This document shows positions 13,464-46,371 of a stretch of 64,000 nt of DNA, piece by piece (the stretch's first letter is position 1; the number at the start of each line of letters is the position of its first letter). The notes under the pieces are model-generated. The model was not told where the DNA came from. It searched no databases and saw only the letters and a list, made by a program, of their open reading frames with translations. Origin of the DNA: Hydractinia symbiolongicarpus (Eukaryota; Cnidaria; Hydrozoa; Anthoathecata; Hydractiniidae); contig NC_079886.1 in assembly GCF_029227915.1 (NCBI RefSeq), positions 20,684,501-20,748,500 on the forward strand, given 5' to 3'. The position numbers and the translations under genes were made by a program.

Positions 13464-13520
13464 ATGAAGATTTACATGTTGGCGTTGTTTTGTTTCGTTT
13501 GGATTCAGTACAATGTTCAG
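13464..13520 (+). CDS. Exon 1 of the giant gene: signal peptide
   Basis: ATG followed by 19 codons ([15 protein letters not shown]...), a basic residue then a hydrophobic core, ending exactly at CAG before a gtaaga donor (phase 0). Exon 2 also begins in phase 0. No other signal-peptide-like exon lies nearer to exon 2. A TATAAAT at about 13457 is too close to the ATG to be its core promoter. The link across the 2.4-kb intron needs transcript evidence. Confidence 0.65.
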
Positions 13521-16500
13521 GTAAGAAAATAAATACAAAATAATTACAAAATTCTATTTGTCCTTCCATAGTATAAGTTACAGGATAACTCATCGCATAA
13601 AAACGCCGAGTTTGCGAAAAAGGTCTTACTCTCTTTTCTATTGGGACGTTTCTTATTATAAGAACTTAAGAATTGATAACTAAGCTATCACTTTGATGTG
13701 CTACGAGCCTTGAAAAAGAAAAAGAATACCGTAATTTATAATTTTTTTGCGCAAGTTTAAATTTCGCGATGAGTTACTTTAAATCAATCAAACTGAAGAG
13801 CTACAAAATGCAAAAGTTAAAAAAGGCGTTAAACAAAAAATTCTTAGATTGCTTTCCACTTTTCGTAAATTTTAGACCTATCAAATATTAGTTTCATAAG
13901 ATACTCCTTACAAACAACGTGATTAAAAAATTTATAAAGAGAGATATATGGCACGTGCACTAATCATCAGCAAATATTTGCTTCTATTGAGCCATCAATT
14001 ATTTTGTAAATATATAAACATTTTTAAAACAAGCACAAACAAGCGTGTGTTGTGTGTACATAAAGAAAATTTTGTTTGTATGCAGTCACATAATGTAGTA
14101 CAATGGTAGCACATAAAAAATAAAAAATTGAACATTGCTAACATTTGCAAGAACAGTTTCTTTAAAAAAATATTAGTATGGCTAAGCTCTAAACTCTTAA
14201 ATGCTTATAAAAATACAAAAGATTTAAAAAAAATGTTTTTATTAGTCTTCTTACTTGTCAAAGTTTTGAATTTTATGGTTTAGACAACGCACCAACTACA
14301 CGTACATATTAAAAAACCTCTTTTGGTGGTCTATTTATTACAATAGATAATTCATTCTGACGGTAAAACATCAATAATCTAACATAACAGAACTATATGA
14401 ACAACTGATAAATTCAGGGAAAATAAATAAGGATATAAAATTGATAATGAAATAAGTACAGGCCCATTCACAATTTGATTTTTGAATAAAAAAAATTGCT
14501 TTAGGGCTACTTTTTCGTTTAAGGTATATGTAACTAATATTGCTTGATCTTATGAAAAAAAACTGTTGGTCCAGGACTTATGACAACCTACATCCTATCA
14601 AATATAACCTACAAATGTAAAAAGAAAAGATAGTTAAAAAGAAGGCTAATTTTCAAAAAAAAATTACAAAAAGTTGCTTGTGATTTACACAAGGTTTATA
14701 TACATTACAATTTAATATACCTTTCAACATTGCTTCTTAATTCGCTAATAACTTCCCTTGGATTAGGATTTTTAACAACTGCTGTTCCAGACACTATCAT
14801 ATTAGCACCAGCTTTAGCAGCTATATCTATATTTGCTGGGCCCACACCACCATCTACTTCAATGTCCATATAAGGAAAGGTCTTTCTGATAAGTTCAACT
14901 TTAGGCATCATGTCTGTCATGAACTTTTGTCCTCCAAAGCCAGGTTCCACTGTCATCACTAAAACCATGTCAACATCATCCATGTAAGGAAGCACGGTTG
15001 ATATATCAGTATTTGGTTTTACCCCAATTCCTACTTTCATACCAGACTCTTTAATTTTACGAATAACAAGTTCATGTTGGTTAGTCGCTTCCACATGGAA
15101 TGTGTACTGATTTGCACCAGCATCAGCCATATCGTTGATCCACCGTTCAGGGGTTATAACCATCATGTGCATGTCAAAAAAAGCTTTTTCTATTTTTGAT
15201 CGAAGACACTTAACCACTGGGGCTCCAAAAGTAATATTTGGTACAAATTGCCCATCCATCACATCCAAATGAAGGTAATCCGCACCAGACATCAGAAGTT
15301 TTTCACATTCATCATGTAGCATTGATAAATCAGAGTTAAGTATAGAGGGACCAATTTTGCATTGTAGGGGGTTATGACACGTAGACATAATTTTTATCAC
15401 CTGAAATGAAGAATAAGGTTGATATTTTGACAAAAAACTTCAGTTAGCTGCCAAGCTAACAATACAATTCTTGACGACCTTAGCAAGTTTTGCCGGAAAG
15501 TGACACTGCATTTGAGTGGGCGAGGCATTCTCTATATTGTCGTTTTGCAGACCTAATTTCATATGTTTTAAAACCTATTTGATAAGTAATTCTACCCCAA
15601 AAACATGTTTTTTTTGCTATTTTAATTTAAATAATATTTAAAACAAGTTAAAGTAATAAGGTTTTATGCAATATTCCATATTCTACCGTTGTTTACCTGA
15701 TTCGTGCCACAGTTCAGTGTTTTACTTTGAAATCGAAAGCCGGGAAAACAAGGTATATACAAACAATATGGTAGACATTATCAAAGCAAACTTCCACGTG
15801 TTCTTGATTTGGCCGCCAAAAGTTTACAACCAAAGTTGTTTCACTTCTATATTTTCACTTAAATGTAAGAAATGTTATTTTTTACTTTTATAGGTGGTTA
15901 ATGGTGACATCACTGTAGAATTAAAGCTTATATCTTATATAAATAAACAAGGACTCAAAAATGATAAAGAATGTTGTGACAGCGGTAAAAACTGTAGTTC
16001 AAATCCATGCGATCCAGAAATTACTGGATGTTTATCCGCTATTATAAACTCTGCAAATTGTGACATTGGCAGATTTACAACAAAACAATACATTGATCAA
16101 AATTACATTTCATTTGGTCATACATTGGGATTAAACATTATAAATCCAATTATCTTTAACTATGAAAATGAATGGAAAAATAGTATAAATGTTCAATTAA
16201 CAGTAAAAGATATTGATGAAGGAAATACACATGATATTATTGACACATTTCATGATGAGATCAAATTTGTCAAGGTGTATTCTACCAAATCTGAATCCAT
16301 TCCTTTATTACGAAATTGGCAAGGAAAAGTTTCAAGTATCAAGTATGCATTGCAAATATACTGCTCTAATAACTACTATGGTGACACATGCAGCACATTT
16401 TGTTTTTCTGCAGGTAATCAGCAGTATGAATGCAATAGGAATGGATCCAAAGTTTGTAAAGATAACTGGTATGGTGATAAGTGTGATAAATTTTGTATGG

Positions 16501-19500
16501 AAAAGGACAGTGACATAGATGGTCACTATAGATGTGATAAGAATGGAGATAAAATTTGTTATACTAATTGGTACACTTCAAACTGTACAGTTCATTGCAA
16601 GGAAAACAACACAAGTACTTACAAGTGTAGTGTTTTGGGTGACAAAAAGTGCTTACGTTTTTGGTACGGCCCTCAGTGTGATGTTTATTGTAACCCTAAC
16701 TTATTAGATAGTGGTTACTACACGTGTGATGCAAGTACTGGTAAAAAAATCTGCTTAGCTAATTGGTTTGGTGTTAATTGTTCAGTATTTTGTAGAGAAG
16801 ATGTAAAGTCAAATTATATATGCAATTCATATACTGGTGAAAAGCGATGCCAGCCAAATTACTATGGCAAGGACTGTGAAAATTATTGTAAGGAAGAAGT
16901 AGGAAGCAATTACACTTGTAATGACAATGGCGGAAAGAAATGTCATCATCATTTTTATGGAAAAGATTGTTCTATCTATGGTATGTACATTTTTAAGATA
17001 TACATTTATACATGTATGAATACATAAATACATGAAAATATAGCACAGGTAGCATTATTTTTATTCCAAATCAATTGATTTTATATTGAAATGTTATAAA
17101 AGTAAAGTGACTTTATTGTTGCTACACTATGTCTTTAGGTATTGATAGAAAACTATTTAACTCTTAAAGATGTATATATAAAAATGGCATAAAAAATGTT
17201 ATATATTGAGTCCATCGAACTTTGACTTTATTGTCAATCATTTTGGCAGAAAGAAAATATGGTGGAATTTGTGGTCCTTGCATTTTTTTTCTTGCTATCC
17301 ACAGAATTAAATTCCCCCACAATTATATAATTTACTTTTTTAAAAAATAATTGGTAGGAAAATAGGATTTTTATACTTTAAGACTGACTTTCTTTTTTAC
17401 ATAAGATGGTTGCTTTTATTATTGGTGCCTGATTTAAAAAAAAATAATCAAATTTCATGTTTTTTTCCAAAACAAGCTTTTGCCATCCACTAAATTAAAT
17501 TGCTTTACAAATTTGTTTCTGTGAGGTAATATAAAAATAAAAAAAATAAAAAGGTTATTTTTTTTTGGTATTTTTTCTTATATAAATTAATACCTTATCT
17601 ATATATATATTTGTAAACTTGAAGATTTGAAAAAAATGAAAGGTGTTCCAAAATTTGTAAGCAAACTACTTTGACAAAATAATTGGTTGATTTTTTTTTA
17701 TTTTTAGTGCCATCATTACCAACTTCAGAAGCCAAATGTGTTGTCTCTAATTCGTTCTTCTACAAGTCATTTGATGGACATTTTTTTACATTTTCTGGTG
17801 GTTGCACATACCAGTTAACTGCAGATTGTATAGATAACACTTTTGCTGTACACTTATTCACAGAACCAAACTGTATGTCACTGTCTCAATCATGTAAACA
17901 CTCTGTAAATATATACTTTGGGATCGTAAATATTAAACTGGAGCACAATAATGTCAAAGTTAACAATGATTCCATATCTCTTCCTTACGTTTTTAAAAAT
18001 ATATTGTTTGAAAAATCAGGTTTTAACTATGTTGTCATATCTGGCTGGCCAGGTGTTACTATAAAGTGGGATGGCACTTCTGTTTATATAGAACTGGCTG
18101 CATCTTATGCAAATAAAACCTGTGGCCTTTGTGGAAATTTTAATGGAAATCCGAAAGATGATTTTACAAGCTCACAAGGTGAAATGGCAACATCCTCAGA
18201 AACATTTGCTAATAGCTGGAAACGGCTTCGACTTGGAGAAGTTTGTTCGAAAAGTTACTCGCATTACGGTTACATTAATCCTGTTGTTAATAGATACAAC
18301 CAATTACCTGTTGTTGATAAAAATAAAGTAACTCAAATTTGCAGTGTCTTGTATAGTTTGAAATTTCAGCGCTGCAATGGAAGTGTTGATCCATCTACTT
18401 TTTACAATCAGTGTTTAGAAGATGTTGCTAGTTGTAATGTACCATTTGGTGTAAATTGCTCATGCCAAGCATTGACAGAGTATTCCAGAACTTGTGCAGA
18501 AAAAAATGTTGTTTTGCAATGGAGGAGTCAGTCATTATGTTGTATGTCAATTTAATTCTTTAGCTTTTTTATCTTCTTGGAATATAGTTTTTAAATCATA
18601 CTTGTCATTTTGTAAGATAATTTGTGCGGCAGAGTTTATGTCATGAGGGTGGGAAGCATTTTGTGCTTACTGCAGGTTAAAGCATTAAAACCTTTTTTAA
18701 AACAACTGCTGTTCTTATTGTTTAGTCACCAGTTTGTACTGAAAAATTGTTTAGCAGTACATAAAACTTTATTCAACTCTTGCTAAGCCTTGTAACCCCT
18801 TTTTCCTTTTTTTATTTTTTATATAAATATACCACCACCTGAACATAGCTATGTAGTTGAAAATCATATAGGGGTATATCACTTGTCTGTTAAAAACAGA
18901 TATTACTGTACTGTATAGCACAAATTTAATCATGAAATCAAAAAGAATAATTCTTCGATTATATATTGATGATGATGAGCTAAACAAGCTTTACCTGTGA
19001 CTAACAGACCAATAATACTCATACTAAATACTTCTGCACCATTATTTTAGATAGGTCCTGTCCAAGAGATATGATATATTCCGAATGTGATTCAACTTGC
19101 CCCAGAACCTGCAAGATAAAATATCAAAATGTACCATGCATAAATAAATGCATTGATGGTTGTGTTTGTCCATCTGGATATGTAAAATATAATAGTACTT
19201 GCATTCTTGAAAGTGAATGTCCTTGTACACACAATGATAAAATCTATCAAAAAGGGGAGACTATACAAAAGGACTGCAACAAATGGTAAGTTTTAATTTG
19301 ATGTTTCATCACCATATAGAAATTTTAAATTTACAACTGTAACACAAAATCAAGGAAAGTAACCTTTGCTAATCGCCACTTTTTTTGCAAAAATGATTTT
19401 TTCGTGACAATTAGCATTTCCAATAAATACAGTTGTTTATATTTTATATCATAAAATGCCAGCATCAATAAGCAGCTATTATTTTGGATTCATTTAAAGA

Positions 19501-22500
19501 ATTTGTTAACAGTGAATGTACTCCAAACCTTCAGGCCATTCCTTAAGACGAGTGCGATCGCACACGCACTCGCCCGCACACTCATAAAAAAAGTTACGAG
19601 TGCTTTTTATCACACTCGTGAATTTTTTCGTTTTCTAAAATATTATAGAGCGATGAAAAAGGCTATTACGCTGATTACTCTTCGTGATTGATTTTGTTTC
19701 AAAGATATTTTCTTCATGTTTTCATACTCACTTTGATAATTGATCTTTTTTTTAAAAAAAAAAACAAGTGCTCACATGCTTTTTTTTCTTTTCACATTGA
19801 TCCCACTCACTTGCTACGTTTTATTTTGAAACAATGACTGAGTTGTTCCACAGTAATCCCTTGTGACGTATTTCACCTGTTCTATCTGATAAAATGTTTG
19901 TATTCGAAAAAAAAAAAAAACTTCATTCCGATGTTGAATTATCATGGAAGCAAAGATAAAGCGAGTTGAACTTTCAACATTTAAATCATATGGACAAGAA
20001 GAAGTTATAGGACATAAAACAGAAGAAATAAATAATAAGACATACATACCTTTTATGTGGTGCAAATTATGTGCAAAATTATTTTTACTAGAAAAGAACA
20101 TTATCTTTTTAACTTTTTTTGAACAGCAGGAAAAAAGGTGTTTAAATGTATTTTTATACTTTCACCACCAGGTAGCTAAAGATTAAAATACCTTCTGGTG
20201 GCCCACAAATATAAAAACGAAAGAAACTGTTTTTAAACAAATAATTGTTTGTACACAAGGAGAGTATGACTGAATATTAGACCAAAAATAAATACTAAAA
20301 AAAGTTGTTTAATAAAACAAAATTTTGTTCATACACAATGAGAGTGCACAAAAGTATATCGTATTAAAAAGAAGTCTGGAAATTTTCTCTCAAACAAGAC
20401 GCAGCAGGCAATAAGTCAGCCCTGCCCTTGGTTTTGTGAGGAGAGATGTTCTGCAAAGACTATCAATTGAGTCTCCTGTACAGTTTGCTTCATGTTGAAC
20501 TGTGCCTGTGATAAGCATTTTCGACGCATGTCACCGGCGACTTCTGCGATATACAACCTAATGATGCCATAACCTTCAGTTCGTAAAGAGCATGTGCTCA
20601 ACGTACTTCCTAATGAGTTCATCTCGAAACATAGAAAGCCAGTTAGCAGTGAACTATTAACTTACTGAAGTACACCATCCGGTAGGTAGGTCAATGGGAC
20701 TTGTACTCCATTTCCAAATCAGCTGAAATGTATCTCATGTCGGCATTTTTATTGCCGACGCAAAACAATCTAATTTTAGGGGCGTTATGCAGCTTAAAAA
20801 ACATAACGTTCTGGTAAACAAAAAATAGTGCAGTGTGAATCACACTTGCAAATATTCACATCACACTAGTAAATTTTGCTTACGAGTGCGATTTTTCGCA
20901 CACCATAGCACTCGTAATTTTTTTAGCGGGTGCTTTTTGTAGCTCTGGCATAGTTTTATTCAAGACATGGCCTGCCTTATCAAAGAAAATGAAATTAAAA
21001 TAAAAAAGTTCCTTTTGGTTTGTAAAAGAAATTTAAAGGATAAAAAAAATCACAGATTTAACTTTTCTCGAATATCCTTCTCAATCATATTTTGTTTTGA
21101 TAATCATTAAGCTTTTTCAAAAATTTTAGTGGGGCCAAAATTTGCCAAATCACAAAATTTTTTTCTTTGATATATTGTTTTGTTTTATTTCTTTAATCTT
21201 AGCTACATATTTTTCTATTTATTTCTTTTACTTTTAGCCTTTGTTTAAGTGGTAGATGGAACTGTACAACAAATGTATGTCCAGGTGTGTTTATTGATTA
21301 TTACCTTATTGTCAAATTTTAGAAAATATAAAAATATAATCAGGCCATTCCTTGAGACGAGTGCGCACGCTCGTAAAAAAATTACGAGTGCTTTTTATCG
21401 CACTCAGAATTTTTTCTTTTTTCAAAATATTAGCTATAGAGTGATGAAAAAAGCTTTTGTGATATTTTAACAATCTACAGCGATATTTTTGCTTTCTTCG
21501 ATGCTGTTTTATTGTTTTTACACAATCCACATCGGTATTTTCACTTTCTAAAATCGTATAGATATCAATTCAAATGAAATATTATACAAATTGAAGCAAT
21601 CGTGGAGACAATTCCTTAGTATTCAAGCATCATTTCTATGCAGCTTAAATAACATATAATGGTATGGAAAACAAAAAATACTTAAGTGTGAAACACACTT
21701 GCAGCAGTAGCTCTACCATAGTTTTAATTAAGAAATGGCAGTTTTAATTAAGAAATGGCCTGTATAATGTTATTATAATATAATACTAAAGTAAATCTTA
21801 ATGTTCAATTCGGTGTCCGAATGTTATAAAAAAACCAAGAAGTGTAGGTCAAAATTAAACCCAATGCTTCATTTTTTGTGTATTTTTATTAAAAAATCTA
21901 TGCCATCTTCAACACAGGTACTTGTGCAACATATGGTGATCCACACTATAAAACGTTTGATGGGAAGTGGTTTGATTTTAATGGCATATGTAAATATGTT
22001 CTGGCACAAGATTGGGAAACTCATTTATTCAGAGTAACTACTGAAAATATTGCTTGCAGCACAACAAAAGATGTTTCCTGTGCAAAGTCTGTTACTCTGC
22101 AACTAAATGGGAGCGTTATTGTGTTAAATCAAGGAATGAAAGTTGCTGTTGAAAAGAAAGCTGTTCTACTACCTTATACAGGCCCTGGCATACTTATACG
22201 AAAGGTTAGCCTTTTTTTATTAATTAGTTTATTGTCATCTATAGTAAGTTTACTTAAGCTAATTACCATTATGCTTTATTAAAAGCTTCTAGATTTATTT
22301 TTTCCTTCTTTCTTTTTAGGTCTCCTCCATGTTTCTAAAAGTGTCAACAACTATTGGGTTGGAAATTCTATTTGATGGTTCTTCACGTATTTATGTCACG
22401 GTTTCTCCTCGCTTTCGAAATAAGACCCGAGGTTTGTGTGGCACATTTAATTTGAACCAAAAGGATGATTTTATGACACCTGAAGGCATTATAAATAAAA

Positions 22501-25500: not shown

Positions 25501-28500
25501 CATCCCTATTTTGATGCATGTTATCACGACGCTTGTGGTTGTGATATGGGTGGTGATTGTGAATGTTTATGTACAGCTGTATCAGCATATGCAGAAGCAT
25601 GTAATGCACAGGGCGTTCACATTAAGTGGAGATCACAACAATTATGTCGTGAGTATTTATTTATGGAACATTTATATCCTTATGCAGAATCATTGCAGTG
25701 ACGAATTTAAATAACCTGTTGATATTTACATTTGCTTCTGAAAGAGTAACTGATATGAAAAAATAAAAAGGCAAATATGTCATTTTATTTTTTGTGTTTG
25801 CTTCATTTTCAGCTATCCAATGTGAGCAGTGTCAAGAATATAAACCTTGTGGCTCCTCAAATCCCCGCACGTGTAGAAACATATGTACTGTACAGTCAGA
25901 ATTTCCTGTCAAGTGTGTTGAAGGTTGTGTTTGCTCGAATGATACAGTTTTACATAATGGTAAATGTATTAAACAAGCTGAGTGTCCTTGCTATCATGAC
26001 AACATGGAACATAAACCAGGATCCTTTATTATTATCAACTGTCAAGAATGGTAAGCATTAAGTAACAGTTCCGGAGGGGCAAGTTGGGGGCTTCACGCCA
26101 CCCTCCACCCCCACCCCCATTAGTTTTGTTCTTTTGTTTCGAATAATCGAAAGGTGCTAATTTTAAAAGTCTTCAAAATCCATCTACACCCCATCCCTCA
26201 AATAAATGCTTCTATAACACTGAGTAGAAAAGGTATTTCTAACATATGCTGTAGATATTTAAATTTCATCAAACTGATGATATATTTTTTATATATTTTT
26301 ATATTTTCCATTTAATGGCAGTAAATTAGTGTCGATCTAATTATGTAGTCTAGTTGTTGTTGCGCTTATATTATTGCAGTTGTTATCTTGTAAGCTGTCA
26401 ACTTTATACAATGAATATTGACGGGTTTTGCTTGCGTCATGAAAATCATAATTTTTTTATTTTTGGTCTGTCTAAGTGAATTCTCAATTAAAACTAGGTG
26501 ATTTGTATTGTTCAGAGCTTAAAACTAAGTAATTTGTATTGTTTAGAGGTTACAACTAGGTAATTTGTATTGTTCGGAGCTAACAACTAGGTAATCTGTA
26601 TTGTTCAGAGCTTACAACTAGGTAATCTGTATTCTTTAGAGCTTACAACTAGGTAATTTGTATTGTTCAGAGCTTACAACTAGGTAACCTGTATTGTTCA
26701 GAGCTTACAACTAGGTAATCTGTATTGTTCAGAGCTTACAACTAGGTAATCTGTATTGTTTAGAGCTTACAACTAGGTAATTTGTATTGTTCAGAGCTTA
26801 CAACTAGGTAATTTGTATTGTTCAGAGCTTACAACTAGAAAATTTGTATTGATCAGAGCTTACAACTAGGTAATCTATTGTTTAGAGATTACAACTAGGT
26901 GATTTGTATTGTTTAGAGCTTACAACTAGGTAATTTGTATTGTTCAGAGCTTACAACTAGGTAATTTGTGTTGTTCAGAGTTGACAACTAGGTAATTTGT
27001 AATGTTTTAATTCTTTAGTACTTGCAAAGATGGTTGTCTCCAATGTACAGGACAGACATGTACTTCAAGTATGTTATGTTATCAAAAAAAGTTGTTTTTT
27101 ACTGACACGGAAAAAGATAATACTGAAGTTTTACACGTTTACAGGATCTAGTACTAATACTGAGAATACACAAACAGTTTCAAAAAATATAGCACATTAG
27201 CCAATTGACAAATTTACGTGAATTTTTAAATAGCGCCTTTTTACTATGAAAATGAAAGTAAAATTGACGTTGATGGTTTTGTGGATTTCCGATATTCCTT
27301 AAGCACTAGGGACATTTTCATGCGCGTGCTATGTAACATTTCTCCATTGCATGCACATGACAAAAATTGCTTGTGTCCTTTATCTATTTTTTACTGCAAT
27401 GGAGCAAAATAATGTTGTTCCACAACTTCGCGGACAAAATCGATCTGAATCTATTTTGTGCCCGTGTTCCAAGGACAAAATTTGATGAACATTTTTTTAC
27501 ATAGCAAATGTTGCTCGTGTCTCCACCTTCTGCAACATTTCCTGGGACACAATTATTTTTACGGCACGTTTGTGCCTCGTGTCCCCATATCATGCAACAG
27601 ATATTTTGCAAAATTATTTGAGGCATGGTGTGATTGACCAATGAAAATGCAAGAAACTGTAAACATTGCTTTTCTTGATAAGTCGAACATCAAGTGAAGA
27701 AAGAAGACAGGAGAAAAAGCAAAAATGTCGGATGAAGAGAAAAAGCTATCTGATGAGAAAAAGATAAATTTAGTCGACTTTTATAAAACAAATCCTGCGT
27801 TATGGGTTAGTAGTGATGTAAAAAAAAGCATATTCTTCTTCATCGTCTAGCAAAAGTAAAGCCAATACTATTTCTCTGCGTATTCCTGCTGCCATAATTG
27901 AATCGCACTTTCACTTAAAAATAATTAAGGACATTTAAATCAAAGTTTTTCATAACATCATTCTGCAGCAAATGAAAAGTAGCGTCACGAGAAACATTTT
28001 CATGCGCATGCTATAGGACATGTTGCATAGCGCGCACATGAAAATAACTTCTGTCCCCTTACCTTAACTTCACTTAATTGCTTTTCATTACAGCTGCTTT
28101 ACCACCAACTACGACGCCTGGAAGCACATCATCTACGTCATCTGCAACTCAAACTTCAACTCCAACAACATCAAGTACCACTACTGAGTCAACAACATTA
28201 GGCACCACAGCTGGGTCAACAACATCACGTCCCACTACTGAGTCAACAAAATTGGGTACTACTGCTGGGTCAACAACACCTGGTACCACTATTGAGTCAA
28301 CAACAACATCACGTACTACCACTAAATCAAAAACACCAAGCACCAGTACGGAGTCAACAACAAAATCCTGGATCACTACTGAGTCTACTACGACTAGTAG
28401 CAGCACAAAGAGTACTCTCAGTGCTACCACTGTAGGTGAAACAAAAACAACAACAGCCACACATGAAACATCTACACCAACGCAAACTACTACAAGCAGT

Positions 28501-31500
28501 TCAACGAAAAGCAGAAGTACCTCTCCTAGTAGTACTTTATCAACAGAAACCAGCACTGCCTCTAAAACGAAGCCACCCACTACAACTCAATCATCCACTT
28601 TGTCAACATCCAGTACACAAAGCAAGACTACCTCATCTAGCACTGAAACCATAACTGATCGACCAAGCACACCTACTACAGGAAGCACCACCCCATCTAG
28701 CACGAGTAAAGCTACTTCGCAAACCACTCCAGAAGTAACAAGTAGCTCCACACGAACAAGCACTTCAGTAACTAAGAAAACAAGCACCAGTCCCAGCACT
28801 ACTCCAGAAACTACCAGCACATCAACATCTCTGACAAGCCGTGAGAGTAGCACAAGTTCCACACAATCTCCCACTACAACGGAGACTAGTACACGTGTCT
28901 TGTCTACCAGCAAACCAACAGTCACGAAAGAGACGACGTTGTCGACAAGGAAAAGCACGACACTTATTAGAGCTTGTCGGATTGGAAATGAAATTGGATA
29001 TGAATGCAGAAACTCGCCTAAGTTTTGTATCGAAAGAGAGTATGTTTCTTTCTTTCGTAATTGAATTTAATATAACAGCAGCGACCGTAAACTACACCTG
29101 AACTTTTGTGGGAATGAAATTTTGTTATACGTGTTGTTTTTATGATATGTAAAAAATTCCTTAATTGCAATAGAACATGTAGGTTTTCCGTTAATTCTTC
29201 TTTAAGTCACTATATTCTGCAACTTTTTTCTACCTTTATGGGGTTAAATGTTCAAATCCAAATTTAATCTCTTAAGACGATTGTGCGATGGAGTTTATAA
29301 CTGTCCCGAATTTGAAGATGAAGAAAACTGCCCAACCAAGCCGCCACCACCAACTACATCACCTTGGAACATGACCACCATATTTCCACCCAAAACCACA
29401 GCTTCCACCACACCTAAAGCATGTGATGGCTTTCTATGTAACACCAACTTTTGTATACGAAAGGGGTAAGTCTACTTGCCTTCACTATAAATGATTCACT
29501 TTTGTTTGAACCTACCATACACTCCTCAATAATATGTATAAAGGTGTTGATACCGTTATTAAGGAATATAGTTTTAAATATAGGATAAACATAAAAATAT
29601 CCTGATTTTAGAATGGTGTGTGATGGCGAAGCAGATTGCCCTGGAGAGGAAGATGAATTCAACTGCCCATCAACCACTGCCACATCAACCACCACAACAA
29701 CAACCAACCTACCAACAGAATCTACCACAGGATCAACAAAACGACCATCTACATCGAAAGAAACAACAACAACAACTGTGAAGTCGTCATCTACAACATC
29801 TTCGTCTACGTCATCACCGTTAACATCATTGCCATCCACATCATCGCCATCCACGTCTTCTTTTACAACGTCATCGTCTACGACATCCTCTACGTCGCCG
29901 TCTACAACACAAACGTCTACCACAAAAGCGACGACACCACTTGAATGTGTGTTATCACCGTACAAAGTGATATGCAAAGATAAAAGCAATTGTTTAGACT
30001 CTACTCAAATATGCGACAACAAAATAGACTGTAAAGATGGTAGCGATGAAGATAAATGTCCGACTTTGTGTCCCAACTGTTCAAGGTTGAATTTTAAATG
30101 TCACAAGACATGCCAATGCACGCCAGTGGAATACGTTTGTGATGGCAAAAATGATTGTACGGATGAATCAGATGAATTGGGTTGTCCAAAAATAAGTACG
30201 TCAACTTCACCGACCACTTTTCCGCCCACAACTACGCTCACCACACTGCCTCCCACTACACTACCGCCCTGTCCAAACAACAAAATTTACAAACCTTGTC
30301 AAAGAAATTGTCAGGGTAAGTGCACATTTTTGTTGGATAAATGTATCGAATCCAGCAGGTCATGCAAGCCAGGTTGTGGTTGTCCTCAAGGACTTGTTGG
30401 AAATGGTACGTTTTGTGTGCTTCCGTCAGCTTGTCCGTGCTACGATCCAGTTTTGAGACAATATTTTCGTGCTGAGCAGAATTGGAATCGAACATCATGC
30501 GAAATCTGTAGCTGTTTTAACGATGCTGTTACATGTGCGAAGAAACCTTGTGAGAAATTATACTGTGTCCCTCCTATGACCCTCAAAACGAAACCTGGTG
30601 ACTGCTGCCCCACTTGTGTCGCTGGCACCTTCCAGCCAACCACACTGGCTACAACGTCCAAACCCACATGTCTACTCAGTGAGTTTTTATGTGGTAATGG
30701 GCAATGTATACCAAAACACTGGGTTTGTGATGATGAGAGAGATTGTTTTCACGCTGATGACGAGCGCAACTGCACAACGAAAAAGCCATATTGCTTCGCT
30801 CCAATAGGTAGCCTTACAATTTTTTGAACATGATTTTATTTAAACGGTTGATAGGAATGCTTAAATCTACTTTTTTCGCATGCAGGATTTTCAATTCAAG
30901 GAAGTGTAGGGAGTTGTCGTGAATTTCAATGGGTGTAAAATGTGAACCTGTTTTTCAATATATTCAAAGGGAAATATATATTTAATATATAGAATATATA
31001 TTGCAGTATATATTTAAAGCAAACACATCAGCTTCTGGTTGAAGGGCAGGAGAAAATAAAGAATTTATCGACCTTTATTTATAGAAAGCCTTTACCACAA
31101 AAATATGACAAATTTTTGTTTTCGTTGCATGCAAACATTTCAGCCATTTTCTATTTTGTCCATTTAGGTGTGGCCAATCCTAGCATCATCAAAGCTTCAG
31201 CGTTTGCATCTAGTTCACATCAGTACACCATACGGGGACCTGTGTTCCAGGCATCTAATGCGAGACTGAATCACAGAGAAAAACTGAACGTGACTGCAGG
31301 AGCGTGGTGCGCGAATATATATGTTTCCGGAATACATTGGATAAGTGTCGACCTCGGACAAATCTACACTGTAAATAAAATTGCTGTTCAAAGTAAGATG
31401 TTTAATAGCTTGCCCTGTTTAATGTTGTTGTTGTTAAAGTATTGTATTTATAAATTCTTCAATCAATGAGTAATTGTAAGTAACGCCACGTGGTTTGCAC

Positions 31501-34500
31501 CAAATCATGCGCGCACATAACTGAACGTCACTTGATTCGCACCAAATTATTGCGCGCGCACAACTCAACATCACTTGATTCGCATCAAATTATTGCGCGC
31601 CACAACTCAATGTCACGTGGTTTGCATCCAATTATGCGTGTGCACAACTCAGCATGACTTAATTCGCCTCAAATTATTGCGCGCGCACAACTCAACGTCA
31701 CATAGTTTGCACTAAATTATAGTGTACGCACAACTAAACATCACTTGATTCGCATCTAATTATTGCGCGCGCACAATTGATTCCGCATTCATAACAGAGC
31801 GAAGAAATGTCATCACCGACGTCACACTTCTCTTTTAGGTCGAGACAGTGCAATTGCGTTCATCCGAAATTTTAAACTCAAGTATAGCATCAACCAGTAC
31901 GATTTTCAATATTATAAATTGCACGGAAATGTTAAGGTGAATTTTTTTTACATTTTTAGTGACGCGGTTGCTTTTGTGGTTGTGTTTTGTGTAATCTACA
32001 TTGTTTTTTCCAGATTTTCTCTGGTAACAGAAGAGTCAACCAGGTTGTTTACCGAAAATTCGAACACGCCATCCAAGCACGTGTCATACGACTTGAAGTT
32101 GTCAAATATTACGGCAGACCTTGTTTACGATTCGAGTTATACGGTTGTATTAACACTAGTTTGACCACCACCCCTCCACCTACAACAACCCTTAGCACGT
32201 TTCGGCCGACTACAGTTTGCAGTGAATTTGAATGCCAAAACGGGGAATGTATAGCGAATCGATTGGTATGTAATAACGTGGCGAACTGTAAAGATGGTTC
32301 TGATGAGTTCAACTGTAACAGAACTTGTGGGTATGTTATTTTAAAAACAATCTTAAATTGATCGTGTACTTTAAGTTATGCTTTGCACATTTCTATTTTT
32401 CAGGTTACATTAGGGAGCTTTCGCACAACTCAGTTTTGCGACGGACTTTTACCTGAATTTCCAGTCAATTAGGAAATAGTCAACGTGCGAAATTCACATG
32501 TGCTGTTTTTTTCTGTCTGTCATAAATTCTCAGAACAATTAACACTTGACAAATCTTTTTTAAAGTTAAGACGGGTTTCCACTTAAACGAATGTGCTCGA
32601 ATCGATCGACGTCGATCAAATCAACCACATTCGTTTGAGTAGAAATCAGCCTTTAGAAGATGATAATTTTTCTTACTCGATTCATTTCTTTTTAATAGTA
32701 GCATTGGTTTTTTGTTTTCAGTCCAAACGAGTTTACATGCGAATCCGGTCAGTGTACATTGTCTGTCAATGTTTGTGACGGCGATCATGATTGTAAGGAT
32801 GGAAGTGACGAATGGTATTGTCCGAATCGAACATGTCAACCGTCGCAATTCAAATGTCCAAGTGGAAAGTGTATTTTTAGAACGTAAGTTGCCTTTTCCA
32901 GTGTCTCAAAAGTTTTGTGCAAGAAGTTCACGTATGATCACATGCCCTGAAATTTTTGTTTACGTCTCCTTCAAAAGGAGGAGACTTTCATCCATTAGTG
33001 GTGTCGAATGTGTTAACATTTAAACGGCTTTGTTTTTTGCTGTCAGTTATTATTACCAGCAAATAATTTGTTGTAGTTTTGGATAATGGAAATTTGCGTT
33101 GCCTTTAAGGTTTCAGAGTGTCTGGAACTATTGTTCTTCTTTAAAAAAGATTGTAGCTACTGAATAATAAAGAAGATTTTTTCTATACAGCTATGTTTGC
33201 GATGGTCAGGACGATTGTCCATCTGGAGCGGACGAGAAAAATTGTACAGACACAACAACAACTGTGCTACCATCTACTACAACATCTACCACCGTAGTGA
33301 CTACGACCACTCAATGTAATGGCTTTATATGCCCCAGCTCAAAAAATTGCATTGATAAGAGTTGGATATGTGATAAAGTGACGGACTGTATGAACCAAGA
33401 AGATGAGAAATGTTGTAGCGAGGAGCTTTTCTTATGTCCGAAGTCTCTTGGTTCTGTGTTAGGGAAATGTATCAAAAGAACTTACGTTTGTGATAATTAT
33501 CTGGATTGTGAAGACGGATATGACGAGAAAAATTGTAGTATTACCACAACGCCGGTATGTGTGGCCACGTTTTTCTCATACGTAGTTGATGTAAGATCTC
33601 AACGTCTATGAGATTTTTTATCTTTAATAAAAAACTTTACCCTTCCATTAGCAGCCCACGACCACAATAAAAACACAGATAGTAACGGAGAGCGGCCCTA
33701 CAACAGTGACAGGTGGTGTTAAACGTTCTACACAAACGACTAAAGGTATTCTTGTTTGTTATGTTCGTCTGTTTGTTTGTTTGTTGATTTGCTTTTGTTT
33801 ATCTCACCTTAATATTCTATCGGTGATTTTTAGCTACAACTTTGTGTCCACGCAACTCCACTTGTTTGTGCATCAATACATGCAATAGTCTCGCAAAAGA
33901 CCCGCGTGGTTGTCATAGATTACAATGCATTGACGCTTGCTCCTGTCCGAAATATTTTAAATACAGTAAAAGAACTGGTTATTGCCACTCAGACCCGAAG
34001 TGTCCGTGTGTGCGAAATGGAAAGGTTTTTGTGGTGAGCATGTTTTGATTTTTTTTTTCACGTAGAAAGAACTGGATGGCGTTAACAGTTACCGTAAGAG
34101 TTTACTCGGAAACGATACGAGCTGGAAAAAAATCGTAGTTTTGCAAGATCAAATTTTCTTATAAAATATGTATTTTTCTTTTTACGTCTTTCTTTCAACT
34201 TATATCATAATTTAGACTGGATCCGTCGTTGACCAGGCTAACTGCACCAAATGCGTGTGCACACCTAGTGGCATACAATGCAGCAAATATTGCAATATCT
34301 CTTGTCCCGTGGTGAGTGCCCCTTTGCTACTACTAAACGTTTCTGCCCCAGGTTACTTCTATCCCTAATACTTTGTAAGATAGTTGACTTTAATATTTAT
34401 TTATTAATTTATTAACAAACATTAAAATAAGCTAGCTTTGTGGGTTTTTTTGAATTTATATTATGGTTAGAGTTGAATATCTAATCGTCTGTCTTAAAAT

Positions 34501-36266
34501 TTTTGCAGTCTTTTTGGGAACATGAAAATCTTTTAATTCTTAAATATTATTTTTAAAACATTCTGCGACAATTTAAATGTAAGAATTTGAAAAAAATAGT
34601 TTAAACTATAAAAAGTCTTGGTAAATACAATAATAAAAAAAAGAAAAATGTTTTTTGTAGGGTCACACGTTAGAATATCCTGTTAATCAATGTTGCAAGT
34701 GTGTCAAGGAGTTAGGTGGGTTTCCTCCCTTATTTATCTATTTTATTTCTCTATTTCATTTATGGGTTTTCCCTAATTTCATTACGTTTATAGGGTTTCA
34801 TTTCGTTTTGCGTTTTGTTCTTCTTACTTCTATACGCCATTTTCTTTAGTTTGTCGAGCCGATCAAGTGAAAACCAGCTGCGCATGCCCAGTAACGTGCG
34901 ATGATAAGGTGAATACAAAATGTACATCGCAGAATTGTAAAGAGGGTTGCGTGTGTCCGAAGGGAAAGTATGATAATGGAACTCACTGTATCGACGTCAC
35001 TGGCTGTTATTGCAAAGAAAATAATGGACGAGTGCGAAAGGTTAGTATGACAAAGAGAAACAGTTAAAACACCCAATTGCTTATGCGGTAATAAAATATT
35101 ATTTTTGTTGAATTATGAATTGTTTGTAAGATTCGAATTAAGCAATTAATCCACACATGGGATTGCTAAATATTTCGATCAAATTTGCGTGTGTTTCGCC
35201 GCATAACCGTGTAAGAATGTTACAACATTTTCCAGTATTAAACTTTACCTGTTAAGAATTTGCTGAGTTTTGATGCATTAAAAAATATTCCCACCTTTTT
35301 TTTTGTGTTGCCTCTGCTCAACTCGCTTTTATTTCAAGGTTGAAATCCTGCGGAAATAATACGATGATAACCAGTCTTCTTTGTGTCTTGAAACCAATTT
35401 TGTTGTTTCTCCTAGCCTAACTCATATTGGAACCGTGGCGAGTGCGAAGAATGCAAGTGTTCGTCAGGAACGATCAGCTGTGGCCTGTTATGTAAATACA
35501 CAACTTGTCCGATTAACTTCGAACTAATCAAGCCGAAAAATGGATGTTGCAAATGTGTCGCAATTAGTAAGTTATTTTTTTTTGGCAGAGTGAGTAAACC
35601 TCGCTTTTATTCAGCTTTTACATCACTGCAGGCATAAATATACGTTATATCCACCTTTCATACCCTACGCTAATAACTACCATGTCATTTACGCATTTAT
35701 ATACTTTTTTATATTTTTTACTATATTTTAATTTTATTTTAATTTTGACTTATTTACTTCTCTGTGTGCTCTAAGAGTTAAAAATTACAGTCTGTGTTAT
35801 AGTCTGTGAAAACTTGCATCGCTGTAAGTCGATATATTTTTCTTTAGAACAAACAACGACGATACCATTTACCACTGCGGGAACCACACCGTTTACCACA
35901 GGAAGCACTACTACAACTCAGATTGTCACAAATGGGACGATTGCTCCATTAAAGCAATGTACGCTGCTTGAACGAAGTAAGCATTATACTGACAGAAAGA
36001 CGAATTGCAAAGCTGAGTATCCGCTGATAATTAGTATGTGTATGGGCTCATGTAACTCAACGGTAGCCAGTGACTTTACGTATGGATACAGCATTTCTCG
36101 ATGCTCGTGTTGTAGACCCAGTGGTATTTATAATGTCACTGTTTCGTTAAAATGTGCAACAGGAATGAGAAGGCGTCTGACGTACGAGAGGTTTAATGCA
36201 TGTTATTGCCAGCCGTGTGATAGATCACCTTTCGTAGACGTTCCTTTACTAACGATCTCACCTTAA
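13464..36266 (+). CDS. Giant secreted MNNL-DSL(x6)-VWD(x3)-mucin-LDLa(x10)-F5/8C-CTCK protein, 29 exons
   Basis: Exons: 13464-13520, 15894-16980, 17708-18541, 19051-19285, 21238-21284, 21918-22204, 22320-22818, 22943-23183, 23658-23945, 24120-24325, 24414-24641, 25253-25648, 25813-26050, 27019-27068, 28094-29039, 29277-29465, 29612-30807, 31168-31392, 31839-31936, 32014-32330, 32722-32883, 33191-33554, 33655-33745, 33834-34033, 34216-34311, 34661-34715, 34850-35040, 35416-35566, 35848-36266. All borders are GT/AG, all 28 junction phases match, and the total is 9393 nt (about 3130 residues). The protein begins with a signal peptide, has no transmembrane segment, and should be secreted and disulfide-linked. 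The VWD to CTCK part resembles SCO-spondin, hemocytin and gel-forming mucins. The N-terminal MNNL and DSL domains are those of Delta/Jagged Notch ligands. I know of no described protein joining the two. The exon model is a hand prediction, but the frame agreement makes it strong. The block entries give domain detail. Confidence 0.85.
14705..15388 (-). CDS. RPE: Ribulose-phosphate 3-epimerase
   Basis: A complete 227-residue cytosolic enzyme that interconverts ribulose 5-phosphate and xylulose 5-phosphate in the pentose phosphate pathway. It is close to full-length animal [15 protein letters not shown] near the start, [30 protein letters not shown] and IEVDGGV. The metal-binding and catalytic residues are present as His40, Asp42, His74 and Asp179, and the phosphate-binding VSGTAVV is near the end. 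I chose the ATG at 15388 because it gives the usual N-terminus and because a 3' splice acceptor (catttcag, ending near 15403) lies just upstream, so the longer open frame to 15433 is probably intron. The coding part has no intron. It lies antisense inside intron 1 (13521-15893) of the giant gene. The upstream acceptor means either a 5' untranslated exon or spliced-leader trans-splicing. Confidence 0.93.
   Translation of the reverse strand: MSTCHNPLQCKIGPSILNSDLSMLHDECEKLLMSGADYLHLDVMDGQFVPNITFGAPVVKCLRSKIEKAFFDMHMMVITPERWINDMADAGANQYTFHVEATNQHELVIRKIKESGMKVGIGVKPNTDISTVLPYMDDVDMVLVMTVEPGFGGQKFMTDMMPKVELIRKTFPYMDIEVDGGVGPANIDIAAKAGANMIVSGTAVVKNPNPREVISELRSNVERYIKL
15894..16980 (+). CDS. Exon 2 of the giant gene: Notch-ligand MNNL domain and about six DSL modules
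   Basis: Residues about 22-170 match the MNNL (C2-like) domain of Jagged/Delta: the opening [11 protein letters not shown], a CC pair, a central cysteine cluster, and [17 protein letters not shown] leading into the DSL. Residues 176-378 are tandem DSL-type modules. The first is [14 protein letters not shown], then YEC..NGSKVC..NWYGDKC. Blocks of 31-37 residues follow with the pattern C-x3-C..Y-x-C-x3-(x)G-x-K-x-C-x3-W/F/Y-Y/F-G-x2-C. The aromatic-Gly-x2-Cys end of one block also serves as the start of the next. Known Notch ligands have one DSL followed by EGF repeats; no EGF repeats follow here. The acceptor is ttatag at 15893 and the donor gtatgt at 16981. The exon ends in phase 1, matching exon 3. 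If unspliced, the frame would stop at about 17027. Confidence 0.8.
17708..21284 (+). CDS. Exons 3-5 of the giant gene: VWD1, C8, TIL
   Basis: Exon 3 (residues about 382-659) is a von Willebrand D domain: [21 protein letters not shown] at its start (a YGDPH motif is absent), then the [15 protein letters not shown] hallmark, with its CxxC. A C8 domain follows ([14 protein letters not shown] to WRSQSLC). Exon 4 is a TIL (trypsin-inhibitor-like) cysteine-rich domain, [18 protein letters not shown] to ECPC. Exon 5 is a 47-nt linker ([10 protein letters not shown]...). This D-C8-TIL order is that of VWF, mucins and SCO-spondin. In VWF such units drive multimerisation. Confidence 0.88.
19532..20974. 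mobile_element. hAT-like DNA transposon remnant in intron 4
   Basis: The ends are inverted: caggccattccttaagacgag at the left, and a right end whose reverse complement is caggccatgtcttgaat. Gagtgcg/cgcactc motifs repeat just inside both ends, as the subterminal repeats of hAT elements do. A possible 4-bp target duplication (cctt) flanks it. The inside has one 80-residue open frame (19944-20186) with a WCKLC pair that could be a zinc-finger remnant, but no recognisable transposase. A shorter relative is at 21341-21762. Confidence 0.55.
21341..21762. mobile_element. hAT-like non-autonomous element (MITE) in intron 5
   Basis: 422 bp with inverted ends: caggccattccttgagacgag, and a right end with reverse complement caggccatttcttaatta. 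It is flanked by a 6-bp direct repeat tataat (21335-21340 and 21763-21768). It shares the end sequence and the inner gagtgc motifs with 19532-20974. It is far too short to encode a transposase. Confidence 0.65.
21918..23945 (+). CDS. Exons 6-9 of the giant gene: VWD2, C8, two TIL domains
   Basis: Exons 6-7 encode a second VWD domain with [11 protein letters not shown] at its start and [12 protein letters not shown] in the core. Here the first Cys of the CGLC motif is replaced (RGLCGT). The C8 domain runs [13 protein letters not shown] to the final SEC. Exon 8 is a TIL domain ([14 protein letters not shown] to QCSC) and exon 9 is a linker plus a second TIL ([14 protein letters not shown] to SCPC). 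Exons 8 and 9 both end in phase 2 inside the same TGx codon as exons 4 and 13, showing that one exon unit was duplicated repeatedly. Confidence 0.87.
24120..27068 (+). CDS. Exons 10-14 of the giant gene: VWD3, C8, TIL
   Basis: Exon 10 opens with a linker ([18 protein letters not shown]), then the third VWD continues through exon 11 and the start of exon 12, with the intact [15 protein letters not shown] hallmark. The C8 domain is [13 protein letters not shown] to WRSQQLC. Exon 13 is a TIL domain ([11 protein letters not shown] to ECPC). Exon 14 is only 50 nt ([15 protein letters not shown]) and links to the mucin segment. It sits directly after a 31-bp minisatellite that fills the end of intron 13. 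Confidence 0.87.
26491..27009. repeat. 31-bp minisatellite, about 16 copies, in intron 13
   Basis: The unit, roughly ggtaatttgtattgttcaga followed by gcttacaacta, is repeated head to tail without spacers. Copies differ by a few substitutions (tt/tc, cag/tag) and one short deletion near 26870. It ends about 9 bp before the ttctttag acceptor of exon 14, so array changes could alter the polypyrimidine and branch region. Confidence 0.92.
27302..28061. mobile_element. Non-autonomous DNA transposon with long inverted ends and a MADF-like fragment (PIF/Harbinger-like) in intron 14
   Basis: About 50-60 bp at the left (gggac..attttcatgcgcgtgc) match, inverted, about 60 bp at the right end (gcgcgcacatgaaaataac...gtcccc). 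Within it, ATG 27725 opens a short frame ([13 protein letters not shown], then [12 protein letters not shown]) that looks like the start of a MADF domain, a partner-protein domain found in Harbinger elements, and stops soon after. TTA trinucleotides flank both ends, but the exact target duplication is unclear. Confidence 0.5.
28094..30807 (+). CDS. Exons 15-17 of the giant gene: Ser/Thr mucin segment, LDLa 1-5, TIL, VWC
   Basis: Exon 15 encodes about 290 residues that are almost only Ser, Thr, Pro and a few charged residues (residues about 1567-1860), a dense O-glycosylation region built from loose ES-T-T-x-G-T-T repeats. Exons 15-17 then give two LDL-receptor class A modules split by phase-2 introns (CIERE|RLCDG and CIRKG|MVCDG). 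After another Thr/Ser stretch come two more LDLa (ending [10 protein letters not shown] and [10 protein letters not shown]), a TIL domain ([14 protein letters not shown] to ACPC), a VWC module ([13 protein letters not shown] to CCPTC) and a fifth LDLa ([16 protein letters not shown]). The Asp/Glu calcium-cage residues are kept in most LDLa copies. Confidence 0.88.
31168..32330 (+). CDS. Exons 18-20 of the giant gene: F5/8C (discoidin) domain and LDLa 6
   Basis: After LDLa 5, exons 18-20 encode an F5/8 type C domain: [22 protein letters not shown] near the spike region, [18 protein letters not shown], and the closing [21 protein letters not shown]. Such domains bind phospholipid, glycan or matrix; SCO-spondin and hemocytin also carry one among VWD or LDLa modules. 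A short Thr/Pro linker and LDLa 6 ([11 protein letters not shown] to [10 protein letters not shown]) follow. Confidence 0.88.
31481..31778. repeat. 43-bp minisatellite, seven units of two alternating types, in intron 18
   Basis: The units share a core ccaaattattgcgcgcgcac then aactcaacrt. They open either cacgtggtttgca (three units, one mutated) or cacttgattcgca (four units). The order is roughly A-B-B-A-B-A-B, suggesting an ancestral A-B dimer was amplified. Two units contain the E-box palindrome cacgtg. The gcgcgcgc tracts stand out in A+T-rich surroundings. Confidence 0.9.
32722..33745 (+). CDS. Exons 21-23 of the giant gene: LDLa 7-10 and Thr-rich linkers
   Basis: Exon 21 holds LDLa 7 (FTCESGQC to [10 protein letters not shown]) and the first half of LDLa 8, which is completed in exon 22 across a phase-2 intron (CIFRT|YVCDG). 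After a Thr-rich linker exon 22 adds LDLa 9 (CNGFICP to CMNQEDEKC) and LDLa 10 (LFLCPK to [10 protein letters not shown]). LDLa 9 and 10 have weaker acidic motifs. Exon 23 is a 30-residue Thr/Ser/Lys linker. Its acceptor is tagcag (NAGNAG), so one Gln may be alternatively included. Confidence 0.85.
33834..36266 (+). CDS. Exons 24-29 of the giant gene: TIL-VWC-TIL-VWC and CTCK
   Basis: Exon 24 is a TIL domain ([13 protein letters not shown] to KCPC). Exons 25-26 form a small VWC-like module ([13 protein letters not shown] to CCKC). Exon 27 is another TIL ([15 protein letters not shown] to GCYC) and exon 28 a second VWC ([13 protein letters not shown] to CCKC). Exon 29 has a Thr-rich linker, then a C-terminal cystine knot: [23 protein letters not shown] (the CxGxC ring), CSCC and CYCQPC. 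CTCK domains dimerise VWF, mucins and SCO-spondin. The stop codon is at 36264-36266. Confidence 0.88.
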
Positions 36267-44697: not shown

Positions 44698-46371
44698 CTA
44701 CTTTCGTTTGCTACAGCAGGCTCTACTGCAAGTTGGAGCACAAGATGGCGAACATCCGGGCTGACACATAGGCATTGGTGGTGGTGGCGGTGGTGCTTGC
44801 GGAATCATAATTGGTGGTAGAGGAACAGTCATGCAACATTGAGGCGCACACGAAGGTTGACATTGTTGTGGTGGTGGTGGTGGAGGTGGTGGTGCACAGG
44901 ATGGTGTTGCACATGGCATGGACATTGGCATTTGCATGGGCATGGGCATGGGCATGGGTGGTGGGCATGGTGGAGTTTGACAAGGCATCTGCATTGGCAT
45001 TGGCATTTGTGGCATACAACATTGTGGTGCACAAGATGGCATGCAAGAGGGCATTGGAGGAGGAGGTGGTGGTGGCGCACAGCATTGCGGTCTACATGCA
45101 GGATAGCACGCTCGTGGACATCCTGGTGGGCATGCAGGTGGAGCACGGGCTGGCATCATCATTGGAGGAGGAGGTGGTGGCATACAACACTGAGGTGCAC
45201 ACGACGGCTGACACTGACTTGGTGGTGGCATAGGCGGAGGCATAGGTGGAGCACAAGGAGGAGCAGCACATGGTGCAGGGGCAGCCATTGGTGTTCCGCA
45301 GCACCCTGGCTGTTGAGCGCATTGTGTGGGACACTGATACTGTGATTGTGGTCGTTGTTGTACAATGGCATACCAATGTAAACAGACTGGAGGACAAGAT
45401 GGTTGTGGTGGTGCTGACATTCCGGGTGGTCCTGGTGGTCCTGGAGGTCCTGGTGGACCACAACATCCAGGTGCTCCCATTTGTCCCATTGGTCCGGGTG
45501 GTCCCATGGCTCCCATAGGTCCCATCGGTCCCATTGCCCCGGGACTACCCATTGGTCCGGGCATTGCCATTGGAGGTACCGCTCCACCACTTGCACAGCA
45601 TCCTGGTGTGCAAGCTGGTGCACATGCTGATGAACATTGTAATCCACATGGGTTAGGAGATCGCTTTTCAATCTCTAGAAAAAAAAACGAATAAAAAAAG
45701 AATATATGTAAATAATTGAATGAACACTTTTTTGCATGCATGAAAGCTATGGGCAAGGTTATGCAACATAAGAAATTGAGATTGCATACCAGATCGTTTC
45801 TCTGCACGTTTATCCAACCATGCAAAACCTTCCCAATCTATACTACCTAAAGTGAGCATCGAGAATCCTTTTCAATACATCTTCAAACTTTACACATATT
45901 TTTGTTGCTATCTTAAAACCTTTTAAAATATCCCAATCACACAAACGTCACAACACCAGCAGTAACAATAACAATTCTCTACAAAGACAGACAAAAGAAA
46001 TACAGTTCAGAGTTTTAATTGACGATGGGCGCCATGAAACATACACAGAGACGAAACAACCACCATTAGGTTGTACATATGACATAACACAACCACCCAC
46101 CACGCACCAAATCGTCTGAAACCCAAACAATACACTCCACATCCATTATCAACACAACCTCACAATCGTAAACACAGCTTGTGGTCACTCATTTTTTTAC
46201 AGATCCAAAAGTACCACACGAACATGCTTTTAGTACACATAATATTATCAGCTGATTAAAATTTTGTACAGGTTAGTATAAGCAAAAAAATGACTTACGT
46301 TTTTCTTTCAATTTGGAAGCTTCGATTGATATGACAGCCATTAGGGCGACAAGTCCTATAATCTTCATCAT
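44698..46371 (-). CDS. Minicollagen with multiple cysteine-rich domains
   Basis: Three coding exons (46371-46299, 45846-45790, 45674-44698) join in phase: 1107 nt, 368 residues. Exon 1 is a signal peptide ([18 protein letters not shown]). Exon 2 plus the start of exon 3 is a propeptide with dibasic sites (KEKR, DKR, EKR, EKR). Then comes a classic cysteine-rich domain (residues 53-70, C-x3-C-x3-C-x3-C-x3-CC), 15 Gly-X-Y triplets (83-127, one being GCC), and about 240 residues of Pro/Met stretches. These contain at least two further full-pattern domains, one of them the C-terminus before SKRK, and several shorter C-x3-C-x3-CC ones. Minicollagens form the disulfide-hardened nematocyst capsule wall and are made in nematoblasts. 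A 5' untranslated intron probably spans 46375-46495. Standard minicollagens have one domain at each end, so this is an extended form. Confidence 0.93.

Follow-up and report, generated by a model that had tools for sequence, protein, structure and literature searches.

We analysed a 64,000-nucleotide stretch of the Hydractinia symbiolongicarpus genome (C12:20684501-20748500 of the 481-Mb assembly; hereafter the window), in which a gene on the + strand (window positions 13464-36266) encodes a predicted protein that joins a Notch-ligand-type head to a mucin/SCO-spondin-type body. Exon borders were picked by hand at GT-AG sites, and the gene model is a prediction from genomic sequence. The 29 exons chosen in this way join into one frame of 9396 nt including the stop codon, giving a predicted 3131 amino acids (aa); all 28 introns are GT-AG, all phases agree and the sole stop of this hand-built model is its last codon. 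An earlier note, made from the letters of the window, had described 29 exons in one frame, with the MNNL domain and DSL array of exon 2 joined in phase to the VWD of exon 3, and both our rebuilt model and an NCBI prediction agree with this; its length of 9393 nt holds as a count without the stop or with the other acceptor of exon 23. The NCBI prediction (P0001, 'SCO-spondin-like isoform X2', 3130 aa) equals the hand model apart from a single glutamine, which sits at the exon-23 NAGNAG acceptor. The gene was previously predicted, but the name 'SCO-spondin-like' conceals its Notch-ligand-type head.

From its N-terminus the protein consists of a signal peptide, an MNNL (C2) domain, six DSL units, a D1-D2-D'-D3 series, Ser/Thr-rich linkers, ten LDLa domains, an F5/8 type C domain, TIL/VWC modules and a cystine knot. 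Exon 1 (13464..13520, +) carries the start codon, shared with P0001, and the signal peptide, recognised as a hydrophobic N-terminus. The entire head lies in exon 2 (15894..16980, +), which closes in phase 1 and was assigned from Pfam, the cysteine pattern and an AlphaFold model. Its C2-like MNNL match spans residues 27-132 (15915..16232, +), and the six tandem DSL units, seen by Pfam and by their cysteine pattern, span residues 176-379 (16362..16973, +). When residues 1-561 were scanned, MNNL (37.8 bits, cut-off 22.5), six DSL (107.8, cut-off 24.2) and VWD (116.1, cut-off 22.9) all exceeded the Pfam cut-offs, in line with the domains named by the earlier note. MNNL was missing from the output for a 1600-aa piece, probably an effect of HMMER's filters.

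The body begins with three VWD and three C8 domains with TIL/E modules, making up D1 (VWD1-C8-TIL-E; exons 3-5, 17708..21284, +), D2 (VWD2-C8-TIL; exons 6-8, 21918..23183, +), the end of E2 with D' (TIL'-E'; exon 9, 23658..23945, +) and D3 (exons 10-14, 24120..27068, +), as read from the gene model, Pfam and, for D' and D3, alignment. D'-D3 aligns with FCGBP, MUC2, VWF, MUC5AC and MUC5B. Within D3, Cys1439 (in the GGDC motif of C8-3) aligns with the D3 inter-chain cysteine, MUC2 Cys1088 or VWF Cys1097, and the motif around it reads DCECLC against DCACFC in VWF. Published work places Asp1087 next to Cys1088 in MUC2 (PMC6739602) and an inter-chain Cys1097 bond within the VWF peptide 1096-DCACFC-1101 (PMC8847404). 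Cys1475, in TIL-3, was matched by eye only to MUC2 Cys1130 and VWF Cys1142, the printed alignment having ended before this position; it lies 36 residues from Cys1439, a spacing equal in Hydra, against 42 in MUC2 by that protein's own numbering. VWD2 and VWD3 each contain a GDPH motif, at residue 760 in exon 6 and residue 1214 in exon 10, which is absent from the Hydra protein; in other VWD proteins GDPH is reported to be an Asp-Pro self-cleavage motif (PMC10880436).

Downstream of D3, exon 15 (28094..29039, +) encodes, by its sequence, a Ser/Thr-rich mucin-like stretch and the start of the first LDLa, and exons 16-17 (29277..30807, +) encode LDLa, Ser/Thr-rich linkers, TIL, VWC and LDLa. Exons 18-20 (31168..32330, +) carry an F5/8 type C (discoidin) domain, overlooked in the earlier note (PF00754, 62.1 bits), and then LDLa; exons 21-23 (32722..33745, +), with the NAGNAG acceptor on exon 23, carry LDLa repeats and a linker, exons 24-28 (33834..35566, +) TIL and VWC modules, and exon 29 (35848..36266, +) a linker, the C-terminal cystine knot and the stop codon. 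These assignments follow the gene model and Pfam, which listed three VWD, three C8, TIL, VWC, ten LDLa stretches and one F5/8 type C over the body; the cystine knot (PF00007) reached 32 bits (cut-off 24) with the tail scanned alone and was unlisted in longer scans.

No EGF family rose above its cut-off in Hydractinia residues 1-1600 and 1858-3131, on either side of a Ser/Thr-rich stretch, or in the full-length Hydra protein described below, and the teneurin-EGF profile (PF25024) stayed under its cut-off in both proteins and was set aside. A membrane anchor was likewise not found, the top 19-residue hydropathy past residue 30 being 1.22 against 2.6-3.5 in anchored DSL arrays, so that Pfam and hydropathy agree with the earlier statement that EGF repeats and a transmembrane segment are lacking. 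An N-terminal EMI domain was rejected, there being no match to it in residues 1-561 among the Pfam families listed up to E 10, and TSP1 repeats were not listed for residues 1-1600, residues 1858-3131 or the full-length Hydra protein. Release of the head by furin was also rejected, as the RX[KR]R motif is absent from the Hydractinia and Hydra proteins; ten dibasic pairs are present, so cleavage by other means might occur.

In vertebrate SCO-spondin an EMI domain stands at the N-terminus, and TSP1 repeats are numerous. The Hydractinia protein shares with SCO-spondin the D1-D2-D'-D3 series, LDLa array, F5/8 type C, TIL/VWC and C-terminal cystine knot, and in both Hydractinia and Hydra LDLa and F5/8 type C lie between D3 and the cystine knot; it differs in having the MNNL and six-DSL head in the place of EMI and no EMI or TSP_1 match. 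With MUC2, MUC5AC and VWF it has in common the D1-D2-D'-D3 order, the C8-3 inter-chain cysteine in D3, a Ser/Thr-rich stretch and the cystine knot, whereas these proteins have nothing before D1, no LDLa and no F5/8 type C; VWF has in addition A domains and a furin site. The earlier description of a SCO-spondin/mucin-type body with the cysteines expected for multimers therefore stands, polymerisation itself being what we infer from them. Its remark that no protein like this one was described does not, since NCBI already predicts both the Hydractinia protein and a Hydra one: the entries called 'SCO-spondin-like' in these animals are the fusion protein itself and its relative. No DSL-VWD or DSL-mucin fusion is described in the portions of the literature on the subject available among the matches listed, where there is also no joint mention of SCO-spondin with a DSL domain or of a DSL domain with mucin and cnidaria; the texts of PMC9080433 and PMC11452194 contain neither 'DSL' nor 'SCO-spondin'.

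Hydra vulgaris shares this domain order. A search with residues 1-560 retrieved the Hydra protein P0002 ('SCO-spondin isoform X2', 3099 aa) at 42% identity over 97% of the region, and among the best 120 of 188 matches a DSL domain was present in only two proteins, P0001 and P0002. Twelve compared segments are 38-64% identical between Hydractinia and Hydra, the head 39%. MNNL scored 37.4 bits in the first 181 residues of the Hydra protein and was unlisted at full length; its DSL units number six by cysteine pattern, and Pfam gave five stretches in the head alone and three at full length. Two SCO-spondin-like mRNAs are enriched in the Hydra head (PMC4820225). The SCO-spondin-like Hydractinia gene of PMC12464821 has TSP1 repeats and is another gene.

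The Hydra protein bears on whether the prediction has mis-joined two adjacent genes, one for a short secreted protein of MNNL-DSL type and another of the mucin/SCO-spondin kind. Separate MNNL-DSL proteins exist in anthozoans, P0121 and P0122 are predicted as heads only, and intron 2 contains four polyA-like motifs, all of which would suit two genes. Yet the head-body junction of Hydra is the same VPSLP as in Hydractinia, every exon phase matches, and Met is missing from the first 64 residues of the open frame of exon 3, which offers no start or signal peptide. P0121 and P0122 extend 15 and 14 residues beyond the end of the Hydractinia exon, and the Gly-Asn and Gly-Lys found there, read from the protein, fit a G|GTAA donor, as in exon-only predictions. 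We consider two genes very improbable. The case that the earlier note set against itself, transcripts ending after exon 2 with a separate start near 17700, is likewise disfavoured by an in-frame stop at the exon-2 acceptor, by exon 3 having no early Met and by the Hydra junction. The HyJagged paper raised the question of a part in Notch signalling for a 332-aa DSL protein that Hydra gland cells secrete (citing Hwang 2007) and that was compared with worm DSL2 (PMC3180645); this protein might represent the 5' end of the fusion gene in Hydra.

Like Delta and Jagged/Serrate, the head has a signal peptide, MNNL/C2 and DSL in Notch-ligand order and the same predicted fold: its AlphaFold model has a mean predicted local distance difference test score of 87.4, and in the PDB its top 24 Foldseek hits are all Notch ligands. 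Those ligands differ in having one DSL, EGF repeats and a membrane anchor, where the Hydractinia protein has six DSL units sharing cysteine loops with four Cys per repeat, neither EGF nor anchor, and no equivalents of Jagged-1 F207 and R203. The EGF repeats of Jagged-1 also contact Notch. PMC3888931 reports that Jagged-1 F207A abolishes Notch-1 binding and leaves liposome binding intact, that D140A/D144A cuts liposome binding and leaves Notch binding intact, and that D72 and D140 coordinate calcium. We read the contact loop of 161 units from 24 array proteins, among which are near-copies and doubtful predictions, and of 94 Delta/Jagged-type proteins, 93 of them readable. Phe occupies the F207 position in 6/161 array units against 89/93 Delta/Jagged-type proteins (the remaining four have Leu), and Arg the R203 position in 37/161 against 92/93. 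In P0122 one unit reads FGNY and one carries the Arg. None of the six units of the Hydractinia head, and none of the six in Hydra, has either the Phe or the Arg.

Calcium-site residues are in place: the Jagged-1 D72 and D140 positions correspond to Asp59 and Asp125 in Hydractinia, and by alignment both Asp are also kept in Hydra. Over 17 array rows the first calcium position holds Asp in 11, a gap in three, Glu in two and Asn in one, and a D-x-D stands at the second (D140) position in 15/17. Thirteen Delta rows show no Asp there in our alignment, while PMC3888931 calls D140/D144 conserved in human ligands, and we therefore make no use of an array-versus-Delta contrast at this site.

The head has relatives elsewhere. 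A profile search with five heads returned 118 proteins, comprising Delta/Jagged and DSL arrays, the latter in Nematostella, Oculina, Actinostola, Dendronephthya, Desmophyllum, Xenia and the ctenophore Bolinopsis. Pfam gave 5-15 DSL stretches in each of nine relatives and ten in the Nematostella protein, and it gave MNNL for P0125 and P0136 (precomputed for P0133); other C2-like N-termini were recognised by alignment, Pfam MNNL being unlisted for P0121, P0122, P0123, P0124, P0126, P0127, P0128, P0130, P0134 and P0139. Among 13 relatives checked, four have an anchor-like stretch (P0124, P0126, P0130 and P0134). PF25024 passes in Nematostella P0123 (76.3 against 65; laminin-EGF 22.1 against 21) and Oculina P0124 (78.5), but in the region that the DSL array itself occupies. 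The arrays of Nematostella (P0123), Oculina (P0124/P0128), Actinostola (P0125) and Desmophyllum (P0136) and those on Hydractinia C11 resemble the fusion head in their C2-like N-terminus, tandem DSL units and cysteine pattern; they differ from it in that the five anthozoan proteins have no VWD/mucin body, and some arrays end freely while others are anchored (the four above and C11 loci L009 and L010). Gazave 2009 (PMC2770060) reported cnidarian genes in which DSL is the sole domain type, in 1-11 copies, and one that combines MNNL with three DSL, but doubted whether they were real and saw them as possible misassemblies. Such arrays, which lack the usual EGF repeats and occur in anthozoans, in a ctenophore and at other Hydractinia loci, contradict the earlier statement that MNNL and DSL are known only from Notch-ligand heads.

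The Hydractinia genome gave at least 20 scored DSL matches, five inside the fusion gene; loci outside the window were read over 6-10 kb each. At C11:23272000-23302000 (L009, L010) three open frames hold 26, 28 and 7 nearly identical DSL units, and two of the three end in an anchor-like stretch, making them membrane-anchored relatives of the head; an MNNL-like exon of the next copy is also present in this cluster. Two C9 loci are candidates for canonical Notch ligands, each with a single DSL: L014 (C9:4872000-4881000, -), with ten EGF-like stretches counted nearby, and L013 (C9:7018000-7026000, -), with one. Their loops read KPRFDKYGHYY (4.88 Mb) and KPRNNSAGHFR (7.02 Mb), with Tyr and Ala at 207 and Arg kept in both, so in Hydractinia Arg and not Phe distinguishes the EGF-bearing candidates, and the array head has neither residue.

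In a tree of heads the arrays (11) were split from Delta (13) and Jagged (3) by a branch with support 98/94. The tree has 27 rows, with no cnidarian Delta/Jagged and with Desmophyllum P0136 (no readable unit), P0126 and P0130 left out; forks within the array group are weak, the labels follow phylum, Bolinopsis has a long branch, the Hydractinia composition deviates, and some 'Delta' and 'Jagged' rows were so named by us, the listing giving no such name.

We favour, with a probability of about 0.55, a large secreted glycoprotein that forms a polymer of the gel-forming-mucin/SCO-spondin class and whose C2-DSL head binds membranes or surfaces and is not a canonical Notch ligand. The cystine knot would give tail-to-tail dimers and D1-D2-D'-D3 head-to-head disulfide multimers, with the Ser/Thr-rich stretches as spacers; with a cystine knot at the end opposite the D3 assembly, disulfide polymers showing a head on each subunit are the expected product. 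The C2 domain would keep calcium-dependent membrane binding, and the DSL units, without the usual Notch-contact loop, would act as an adhesive rod or a stiff spacer. With its many heads the polymer (mucus, glue or matrix) could thus be fastened to membranes or surfaces. On this comparison of domains and residues the head has probably been reused for holding membranes rather than for signalling. We do not file it as a canonical Notch ligand because EGF repeats, anchor and loop residues were looked for and not found, although the head may still have some action on Notch.

The earlier note had proposed either a secreted Notch modulator or a structural protein that had adopted the fold. As a modulator, the polymer would engage Notch with many C2-DSL heads, serving as a decoy when dissolved and as an agonist when fixed in the matrix; the Notch-ligand fold, the MNNL and DSL scores and the Notch role raised for the 332-aa Hydra protein (PMC3180645) speak for it. 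It gains further from the divergence at 207 seen in hydrozoan ligand loops: with the EGF-bearing candidates of Hydractinia also without Phe there, loss of that residue alone proves little. The proposal is nevertheless weakened by the absence of both Phe and Arg from all six units in Hydractinia and Hydra, when both EGF-bearing candidates keep Arg, by the lack of EGF repeats and by the separation of array heads from Delta/Jagged in the tree, and we regard it as unlikely. Slightly more doubtful again is a gel-borne Notch cue free of cell-cell contact, in which the heads would act via a changed surface, either by tying up receptors or, where the polymer is fixed, by exerting a pull. A purely structural matrix, mucus or adhesive protein, with the head as a stable spacer or self-association module and no lipid binding, fits at least as well as a Notch modulator: the units keep their number and cysteine pattern even as their loops differ, and the body is mucin/SCO-spondin-like. 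It leaves unexplained, however, the D-x-D at the D140 position of most array rows, and we entertain it only tentatively. The observation made in the earlier note is thus confirmed and its interpretation partly supported.

In this gene a signalling-ligand head has been placed on a mucin-class polymer, an arrangement kept in two hydrozoan lineages. The polymer-borne head joins the secreted and anchored forms of the cnidarian C2-DSL arrays, a group once suspected as an assembly error. It may separate in nature the lipid binding of a Notch-ligand head from its receptor binding, and it bears on the question of whether the C2-DSL unit served in adhesion before or beside Notch signalling.

Several other features lie in the window. 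Intron 13 of the fusion gene contains a tandem array of 31-base units (26488-27006; 16.8 copies, 90% matches). Inside intron 1, on the opposite strand and outside the fusion protein, is an intron-free ribulose-phosphate 3-epimerase reading frame (14711..15400, -; PF00834, 225 bits). A 280-aa hydrophobic frame at 3777-4619 (+), for which no Pfam family was listed, resembles a receptor fragment. In a reading frame at 44698-45837 (-) Pro-rich cysteine motifs accompany a short Gly-X-Y stretch (Collagen, 31.7 bits), and the frame is, we presume from the motif, minicollagen-like. Three tandem alpha-(1,6)-fucosyltransferase-like frames (FUT8_N_cat) follow on the - strand at 51091-52656, 56120-57685 and 60837-62387, the third being split by an in-frame stop.
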